Below, piece after piece: positions 34,486 to 36,552 of a DNA stretch of 62,804 nucleotides. Origin of the DNA: Haloimpatiens lingqiaonensis (GTDB taxonomy: Bacteria > Bacillota > Clostridia > Clostridiales > Clostridiaceae); the NCBI RefSeq assembly GCF_901447495.1, contig NZ_CABDWS010000007.1, forward strand, positions 1 through 62,804. The letters run 5' to 3'. Numbering within the stretch: position 1 is the first letter of the stretch; every line of letters starts with the position of its first letter. The notes under the pieces were generated by a model. The model was given only the letters and a program-made list of their open reading frames with translations, did not search any database and had not been told where the DNA came from. The position numbers were made by a program, and so were the translations under genes.

Positions 34486-34794
34486 CTATATTACATATAT
34501 ATTATATCCTATTCCATCAATTTAAAAAATCATACTACAACTTTACAAATACTAATATAAACAAAAGCTTTTCAAAACTGAAGAATCAATATGTTTCAAT
34601 AGTATATCACATATATCGTATTTTATATAATTAATGTATAATATTTAAATAAATATATTGCATTTATAATTTATAAGTGCTACAATCATATTGTAAATAA
34701 GGAACATAAATTTATTATATAGATAATTTACTACATATTTTATTGAAAAATTAATTAAAGCTTTCTAGTTTCATGTATGGGGGAGGATTGTATA
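34486..34794. other. AT-rich divergent region between uvrB and the Cys-rich gene
   Basis: No reading frame or clear repeat. It must hold the plus-strand promoter of the small Cys-rich gene; several TATAAT-like boxes exist in the 34620-34740 stretch, but none has an unambiguous -35 partner. Confidence 0.4.
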
Positions 34795-34983
34795 ATGGGA
34801 AATATTTATGAAATTATGTGCGTAGCTTCAAATTGTTCTTCTTTTAAATCTCAAGACTCTGTGGTAATGTCTTCTATAGGAACTCACTTAAGCAAAAGTT
34901 GTTCTAAATGTTCACATTGTAAAAATTGCAAATGTGAGTTAGATTTATATGACAAAGTTATTTCTAGTATTGATGAAAAATAA
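34795..34983 (+). CDS. Small cysteine-rich protein, function unknown
   Basis: A 62-aa protein with no recognised family. It has seven cysteines, five of them in the tight run C-x2-C-x2-C-x2-C-x-C (CSKCSHCKNCKC, about 36-47), plus C9 and C14. No signal peptide or membrane helix. The spacing suggests a metal site (zinc or iron-sulfur) or a redox peptide; that is inference. The ATG at 34795 has GGGGGAGG about 7 bases upstream; a frame-internal ATG at 34777 is itself part of the ribosome site. It is alone on the plus strand between minus-strand operons, and a strong hairpin terminator follows, so it is a real single-gene unit. Confidence 0.7.
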   Translation: MGNIYEIMCVASNCSSFKSQDSVVMSSIGTHLSKSCSKCSHCKNCKCELDLYDKVISSIDEK

Positions 34984-35024
34984 AATTTAAATAAATCACC
35001 CTAACAATAAACAACTAACCACCT

Positions 35025-35072
35025 AAAAAGTTAAAAGCATAAGGATATATATCCCTATGCTTTTAACTTTTT
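35025..35072 (+). terminator. Bidirectional terminator after the Cys-rich gene
   Basis: AAAAAGTTAAAAGCATA (35025-35041) is exactly complementary to 35056-35072, with GGAT/ATCC pairing inside. The plus strand ends in TTTTTATTATATT and the minus strand also has a T-run, so it can stop transcription from either side. Confidence 0.85.
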
Positions 35073-35090
35073 ATTATATTAATATAAACA

Positions 35091-35220
35091 GATCTCTAAC
35101 CTTCACATGGAGTTTTTACTCCAACTGAAGGTTAGAGATCGTTATCCAGGGACGTAGCTGCCGTTAACTCCCGCTTTGTTAGAAGTGGTAGTGTTACGGC
35201 AGGTAGTCATCGGATAAACC
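35091..35220 (+). ncRNA. Candidate structured RNA (class not identified)
   Basis: The stretch is far richer in G+C than its surroundings and folds almost completely. A 15-bp perfect hairpin 35091-35105/35126-35140 has an inner GGAG/CTCC stem. A closing stem TTATCC/GGATAA (35142-35147/35212-35217) encloses CTGCCGT/ACGGCAG (35158-35164/35196-35202), extended by AAC/GTT, and CCGCTT/AAGTGG (35171-35176/35183-35188). That last stem needs a G-U pair on the plus strand but would have an A-C mismatch on the minus strand, which favours plus; TATTTTTTCT follows at about 35228. The minus strand cannot be excluded, since the 15-bp hairpin could be its terminator. No open frame. I cannot name the RNA family. 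Confidence 0.6.
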
Positions 35221-35259
35221 TATGCAATATTTTTTCTAATTTATATTTAGTCATACAAC

Positions 35260-36552
35260 TTATTGATTGTCCTCTTCCCTTTTCTTGGCTTCATCTAAAT
35301 ATTTTTTAAATTCCTTACCCTTTAACTTAATCACAGCATTATCTTCTGGTACAACTTTGGGCACCATTAAAGCCCCCAAATCATTCTTACTCACTAAATT
35401 ATCATATTTTAATTCTTTTAACTCACCGGAAATTTTTCTAGCAGTAAGCTTTATATAGTTTGGTGCATCTCTAAGTACATCTAGTATATCATTTTCCTCA
35501 TTTATTTTATTATTGTTAATATTCATAAGCAAATCTCCACTTTTAATTCCCATTTCATCAGCTAAAGAGTTAGGTATTACCTCCAGTACCATAATTCCTT
35601 CTTCTCCGCTAGCATATATAGCCTTACCCTTAATCTCCATGAACCTTTGAATTAAAATCATTGCTTCGTGACCTAGTGGAGCAAATATTATAAGAAGCAA
35701 TTGAGCAAATTCGTTATTTGAACTCACCTGGGAAAATAAAAATAAAACTATAGAGTACAATATTACCCATATTCCTGAAGAAACGGTTTTTTCTTCTTTA
35801 CTTCTTGTAAACGTAACGGATTCATACCCTAATATTCCGTAAAATGTTATAGCTGATATTATTAAATTTTTTATAGTGTTAAAGGGTATATTTTGCTTAA
35901 CTATAGGCCACCAATTAGGGAAATTTATGCTTATTCCCTCAAAAGAATTAGGATTCATTATAAAAAGTAACGCCACTGGCAAAATCCAATATCTTTTTAA
36001 TAAAAATCCTCCAAATATTGTACCCTTATCATTTTTAAATACTGGAATGGCACCTCTTTTGCCATCCAGTATTATCATAATTCCCTCTACAAAATGAAGC
36101 ACTGCCACTAAAGACATTAGCGCTACTATATCTATTTTAAATAAGTCCAGTGAAGGCTTATTTAAAATTATAGATATTTTTTCAAATATAAAACTCAATA
36201 ATCCTAAGGCTGCTCCCGAATATGCAAAACATACAAATCTAGGTTTTATAAACATAAATATTATAGATAATATAAATATAAAATCTATTAAAGAGTCTTC
36301 TCTAAAGGTTATTCCTAAACAAGCTATTATTAAACTTGCTAAAACCGCACCAAATATTCCTATTACTATTTGTGATATGGTTAGCTCTAAAGGAGAGTTT
36401 ATGCTTTTTCCTACTACTATTTTCTGCATCAATGTGATTTTTTTATTCTGCTTGTAAAACATAGCACCTATTAATATTAATACTAAAAGGGACATAGGTT
36501 CTACTAAGGCTTTAGCCACAGCTCTAAGCACATAAAGTATTAATGTCAACAT
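35260..36552 (-). CDS. Membrane protein with C-terminal PDZ domain
   Basis: A 430-aa protein with about eight hydrophobic helices in residues 1-315 and a PDZ domain near 320-390 (GIMVLEVIPNSLADEMGIKSGDLLMNINN). No protease motif is visible, so it is not itself a recognisable peptidase; the PDZ may bind substrate or regulator tails. It is the last gene of ftsE-ftsX-ctpA-PDZ, 39 bp after ctpA, which suggests help for or control of that protease at the membrane. The function is unknown to me. Confidence 0.75.
   Translation of the reverse strand: MLTLILYVLRAVAKALVEPMSLLVLILIGAMFYKQNKKITLMQKIVVGKSINSPLELTISQIVIGIFGAVLASLIIACLGITFREDSLIDFIFILSIIFMFIKPRFVCFAYSGAALGLLSFIFEKISIILNKPSLDLFKIDIVALMSLVAVLHFVEGIMIILDGKRGAIPVFKNDKGTIFGGFLLKRYWILPVALLFIMNPNSFEGISINFPNWWPIVKQNIPFNTIKNLIISAITFYGILGYESVTFTRSKEEKTVSSGIWVILYSIVLFLFSQVSSNNEFAQLLLIIFAPLGHEAMILIQRFMEIKGKAIYASGEEGIMVLEVIPNSLADEMGIKSGDLLMNINNNKINEENDILDVLRDAPNYIKLTARKISGELKELKYDNLVSKNDLGALMVPKVVPEDNAVIKLKGKEFKKYLDEAKKREEDNQ

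Follow-up and report, generated by a model that had tools for sequence, protein, structure and literature searches.

Does the strongly folded stretch at 35091–35220 of this Haloimpatiens lingqiaonensis contig encode a new RNA, as a preliminary description made from the letters of the DNA had proposed, or is it something else? In the window (the whole stretch of DNA analysed, 62,804 nt), it is flanked on one side by the stop of a minus-strand PDZ-protein gene and on the other by a palindrome. Both this gene and another one, presumably uvrB judging by its sequence, are antisense to it; given its position past the stop of the PDZ-protein gene, its antisense strand would be included in any transcript reading through from there.

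A folded stretch and its copies

The predicted fold of 35085–35225 has an MFE of −70.4 kcal/mol, compared with a mean of −32.6 for shuffled sequences (z −9.6). As none of 200 shuffles was as good, the strong folding claimed in the preliminary description was borne out, and the stem positions given there were correct to the base. The minus strand is nearly equal in this respect (−62.2, z −8.7). The element is indeed G+C-rich in an AT-rich gap (44% versus 27% in the 500 bp on either side), and, again as described, no open reading frame of 60 aa or more spans it. Domain 1 of the predicted fold is a perfect 15-bp stem (35091–35105/35126–35140) topped by a 6-bp upper stem; domain 2 contains stems 35142–35147/35212–35217, 35158–35164/35196–35202 and 35171–35177/35182–35188. 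The segments GGGACGTAG and GGTAGTCATC, previously regarded as conserved linkers, are conserved, but within domain 2 they mostly form base pairs or small internal loops. No Rfam 15 family, raiA included, matched in the window at its gathering threshold, which agrees with the earlier failure to recognize a known class; the best weak match nearby, Srn266 (39.3 bits versus a threshold of 63), extends over hairpin 1 and the adjacent palindrome. Nor did any Rfam family match the long variants and other subfamilies of the element at the E-value limits used. The features of the locus are as follows.

35084..35218, plus strand: copy of the very probably mobile repeat, both ATAAA included (model match of 160.9 bits; aligned copies; unbiased ends)
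35084..35088, plus strand: left ATAAA, target side (83/84 left ends; single ATAAA at empty sites)
35091..35140, plus strand: domain 1, long hairpin with 15-bp and 6-bp stems (fold; inverted repeat 35091–35113/35118–35140; covariation)
35141..35147, plus strand: GTTATCC between the domains (pairs with GGATAA of the right end in the fold)
35142..35217, plus strand: domain 2, interrupted hairpin with conserved small internal loops (fold; covariation in helices 3, 4 and 5)
35214..35218, plus strand: right ATAAA, element end (82/86 right ends)
35024..35073, no strand assigned: neighbouring palindrome with 25-bp arms, outside the element (inverted repeat)

The true unit thus begins 7 bases to the left of the start first proposed (35084 versus 35091) and measures 130 bp plus one 5-bp ATAAA. 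The palindrome is terminator-like by eye; a terminator scan with a G+C rule did not report it.

A unique non-coding RNA is ruled out by copy number. In the own assembly (G000; 3.29 Mb in 184 contigs), a 22-base core was found at 153 places with up to three mismatches, and its reversed pattern at none. At least 43 places in this assembly, the window included, are near full length (40 of 164 candidates scored, mirror matches aside); model hits of 31–55 bits on the opposite strand of a copy reflect mirror matching of the palindrome and do not enter the copy counts. The flanks are unrelated from copy to copy. When the ends were not used as the query, ATAAA was present at 83 of 84 left ends (ATAGA at the other one) and at 82 of 86 right ends, counts for which 15 of 99 left rows and 1 of 87 right rows had been set aside as mirror matches and which include a few rows from relatives. 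Some copies are arranged head to tail with a step of ∼130 bp and one ATAAA common to neighbours; one such trio, with a 130-bp step, is found at G000:C1:90697-90978 (L172). The stretch is therefore almost certainly one copy of a dispersed interspersed repeat.

In the aligned copies, the arms of hairpin 1 have either of two sequences, GAGCTCTTAGC or GATCTCTAACC, and these are combined in several ways, as if arms had been exchanged via template switching or inversion. A second dispersed palindromic repeat (AAAGATTTTC ... GAAAATCC) seemingly lies beside several copies (in the right flanks in L062, L032 and L077, and in the partner in L073).

Empty sites and distribution

For 126 copies, the two flanks were joined and used to search the retrieved loci, which gave 81 junction-spanning hits, many of them tandem self-hits. 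Among 11 chosen pairs of occupied and empty sites, 6 have a clean single ATAAA at the empty site, including a paralogue and Clostridium sp. KNHs214 (G001), and the remaining 5 an altered 5-mer (ATGAA, TTAAA, AT-AA, AGAAA and ATAAC); no element sequence was found in the empty partners within 45 bp on either side of the junction. The best pairs are L130 versus its paralogue L131 and L130 versus L204 of KNHs214. The KNHs214 interval that matches the window locus is also devoid of the copy, in a poor alignment (77%). In genome G007, a gene that we take to be comM-like from the look of its protein, already fused to a Y1 gene, is interrupted by two copies. Since the paralogue and KNHs214 both show empty sites with one ATAAA, the repeat is very probably mobile. 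Taken as a whole, 35084–35218 is probably best explained as a non-autonomous, non-coding mobile DNA repeat. Weighing against this explanation are the five altered 5-mers, the poor match in distribution of the two Y1 families compared, the lack of a lagging-strand bias, the failed covariation at base 3 of the left target, and an orientation bias that differs between genomes (details below).

A diverged copy (L079:6392-6524; 52 bits) is also present in Clostridium brassicae, again between uvrB and the PDZ-protein gene; it occupies another position within this interval and is thus an independent insertion. The window further contains a 68-aa cysteine-rich ORF (34777–34983), visibly conserved at the equivalent place in KNHs214.

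Within its own genus, the element is present in G000 and G001, and none was seen in G002. With a covariance model (R1), the element was detected at an E-value of 1e-4 in 81 of the 206 family genomes, which represent 22 of the 46 genera; 73 of these genomes were also positive at 1e-10. Model R2 at 1e-6 detected it in 28 of the 393 genomes examined from the class (15 from the own family, 13 from other families), the weakest hits being included as scored; the best copies in G224, G252, G318 and G481 have ATAAA at both ends. Counts of the right-end pattern in 15 genomes ranged from 0 (G015) to 156 (G131) and 185 (G151), compared with 0–4 per strand for controls. BLAST revealed no relatives on plasmids (two queries) or in phages (one query), and the exact 17-base pattern was absent from viral contigs. 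An optional module of ∼51 nt, conserved across genera and without an Rfam match in the examples scanned, is present at the tip of domain 2 in one copy or two in tandem (L118:1429-1617, L112, L122, L184, L249, L263, L274, L282, L352, L353 and L355; doubled in L099/L268, L249, L263, L274 and L282).

Ends and candidate movers

Main-type copies carry equal end 5-mers (ATAAA on both sides), as in target duplication. In the GTG subfamily, the ends are unequal in 13 of 17 copies (12 ATCAA/ATAAA, 1 ATTAA/ATAAA) and equal in the others (3 ATAAA/ATAAA, 1 ATTAA/ATTAA); 17 of 24 rows were counted as elements, 7 having been dropped as chance or main-type matches, and the comparison of subfamilies was made on end 5-mers, type labels being set aside (those of L300, L303, L304 and L314 are among the wrong ones). 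Such unequal ends speak against simple target duplication. The left 5-mer could be derived from the target and the right one encoded by the element, which would fit the GTG subfamily; alternatively, ATCAA could belong to the element. Covariation of the third base of the left target with a neighbouring stretch appeared good in the first copies and was broken by L239, L264 and L266.

An enzyme supplied in trans may recognize the hairpins in folded single-stranded DNA; the likeliest candidate is a Y1/HUH enzyme of the IS200/IS605 type, which would cut at the left ATAAA and at the ATAAA of the right end. Either of these cut sites could be bound by base pairing to GTTAT, located between the domains: in the model, GTTATCC could pair alternatively with the left ATAAAC, the base of domain 1 being folded in three subfamilies. 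In single-sequence folds, the closing pairs of domain 1 differ among these subfamilies (AAC/GTT, AAGT/ACTT and ATG/CAT), so that pairing would adjoin the left cut. Effects at the RNA level (structure in 3′-UTRs) would be secondary. A Y1/HUH mechanism is plausible, if somewhat short of probable; a recombinase would fit too, and Y1/HUH is preferred in view of the hairpins and the absence of inverted ends. Hairpins near both ends, the lack of a terminal inverted repeat and a short fixed left target are also features of non-autonomous palindromic elements derived from IS200/IS605, known as PATEs; the repeat has subterminal hairpins and fixed 5-mers, and in one subfamily most copies have unequal ends. 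Some features of this kind are given in the available part of PMC6006769. In contrast to such elements, no parent with the ends of the repeat was found: the IS605-like L126, the sole tnpA–tnpB element found in the own genome and the only IS compared, is unrelated by sequence and was rejected as its origin.

By analogy with other repeats, a tyrosine or serine recombinase might instead integrate a small circle at ATAAA-like sites. This route, which would account for tandem arrays with one common ATAAA and for the narrow set of 5-mers (ATAAA, ATCAA and ATTAA), appears somewhat unlikely, as the target is only 5 bp without flanking arms, short for enzymes of these classes. It has, however, been suggested for BCRs with TTTAT in the part of PMC6542083 available.

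The 196-aa RAYT-like Y1 protein could move the element as in a REP/RAYT system, which we judge improbable. REP sequences, like the element, are intergenic palindromic high-copy DNA with GTAG in a hairpin (here within domain 2); they are 20–40 bp long according to the accessible part of PMC3733652, whereas the element has ∼130 bp and no firm transposase link. It is close to the gene for this protein in 3 of 30 loci (at 84 bp from the start in G000, at 46 bp beyond the stop in G130 and within the fused ORF in G007), and the two weakly co-occur (30/81 element genomes versus 29/125 others; p 0.04). However, 51 of the 81 element genomes have no such protein at an E-value of 1e-30, including G131 and G151 with their 156 and 185 pattern places, and the copy beside the gene in G000 is an insertion that is missing from the paralogue and KNHs214. 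A 307-aa Y1 protein was rejected as the mover for lack of co-occurrence (26/81 versus 40/125; p 1.0). In G000, a comM/yifB-like gene immediately adjoins the gene for the 196-aa protein (L130:140-1896); in G007, the two are fused (L226:1483-2781).

A classical MITE, with a DDE transposase acting in trans and duplication of a 5-bp ATAAA target, would explain why ATAAA is alike on both sides of main-type copies and single at empty sites, but is improbable: MITEs are defined by terminal inverted repeats of 15–30 bp (PMC3733652, in the part available), whereas the inverted-repeat search reported only the palindrome and hairpin 1 and nothing linking the two element ends, which match at 12 of 25 positions; moreover, the end 5-mer is nearly invariant, and the ends are unequal in most GTG-subfamily copies.

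The preferred Y1/HUH reading can be extended to a transposase-free clostridial family that is not confined to a single family within the class. In its members, GTTAT would pair by turns with the left target and with the right end, letting a host-encoded single-strand enzyme peel and paste a 130-nt DNA, and the optional tip module would be a second functional part; in this full form, the reading is unlikely.

Constraint, orientation and related repeats

A structural alignment was made of 26 distinct sequences, for the most part a single one from each genome. Pairing is kept in 97.2% of its cells, and changes on both sides affect 16 of the 40 pairs, compared with 7.6 in shuffles and 4–7 in slid versions; relatedness inflates the contrast with the shuffles, and the slid controls keep relatedness but favour the alignment-derived structure. 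The preliminary description had named covariation among relatives as a check, and it was found across genera, in helices 1 and 2 (domain 1) as well as 3, 4 and 5 (domain 2). Because pairs covary, the two-domain fold looks constrained, as DNA or RNA. The G-U pair at 35173/35186, which had been taken to favour a plus-strand RNA, is present in the predicted fold, but the hint is weak: G-U and A-C cells number 33 versus 16 on the plus strand, and 21 versus 15 after leaving out one pair, so that the choice of strand from these counts gave no clear answer.

Of the 102 G000 copies read individually (among the 153 places), none has its middle inside a 90-aa ORF (12 unclassed), and one overlaps the end of a 118-aa ORF. 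Between co-directional genes, with ORFs called by a simple script, 46 copies in G000 are antisense and 15 sense (p 9e-5); all groups pooled give 78 versus 39 (p 4e-4). The bias recurs in G151 (12:4) and G001 (5:1), and is absent from G131 (5:4), a mixed set (6:8) and another set (2:5). There is no lagging-strand bias: with the terminus assumed opposite dnaA, exact-pattern places opposed to the fork are 27 of 46 in G151 and 19 of 44 in G131.

A structured RNA, trans-acting or cis-regulatory, might be what is selected, dispersal being secondary, with copies kept, for example, as 3′-UTR or mRNA-stability elements. The covariation, the slight plus-strand G-U excess and the conservation of the optional module argue for this, as do bcr repeats of B. 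cereus, of which 84/165 and 62/155 copies lie within mRNAs (PMC3446304, in the portion available). Empty sites, the high copy number, folding of both strands, the lack of a promoter-like site at 34700–35400 in a simple consensus scan and the mostly antisense orientation in G000 argue against it, and we give it little probability. Thus, the conserved fold outside Rfam stands, whereas the discrete RNA gene first proposed gives way to a high-copy dispersed element with empty sites.

In broad terms, the element is one of the small folded interspersed repeats. By description, it is likened to bcr1 of the group A Bacillus cereus repeats, which is also dispersed, folded, non-coding and similar in size (167 bp; PMC2267715, available part). 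The accessible part of PMC6542083 gives an average of 39 and up to 130 bcr1 copies and links mobility to TTTAT, the complement of the ATAAA found here at nearly all ends; unlike the element, bcr1 is reported there as confined to the B. cereus group. By analogy, the element may work like bcr1. Clop-1 of C. perfringens and Clot-1 of C. tetani are likewise dispersed folded stem-loop families in Clostridium genomes, but differ in size (93 and 74 bp) and copy number (44 and 19; PMC2267715, available part), a comparison by description under which partial overlap with the element is possible. In the literature searched, mostly papers outside subscription, no description of this clostridial repeat family was found.

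The element can pass for a new RNA gene in clostridia, and recognizing the repeat averts false ncRNA calls. This repeat family, found in 81 of the 206 genomes of the bacterial family and reaching 185 pattern places in one of the 15 genomes counted, may influence 3′-UTRs as well as genome rearrangement. In addition, it allows the mover of a transposase-free element to be sought through a comparison of close genomes that have the element (G000 and G001) with one in which none was seen (G002).
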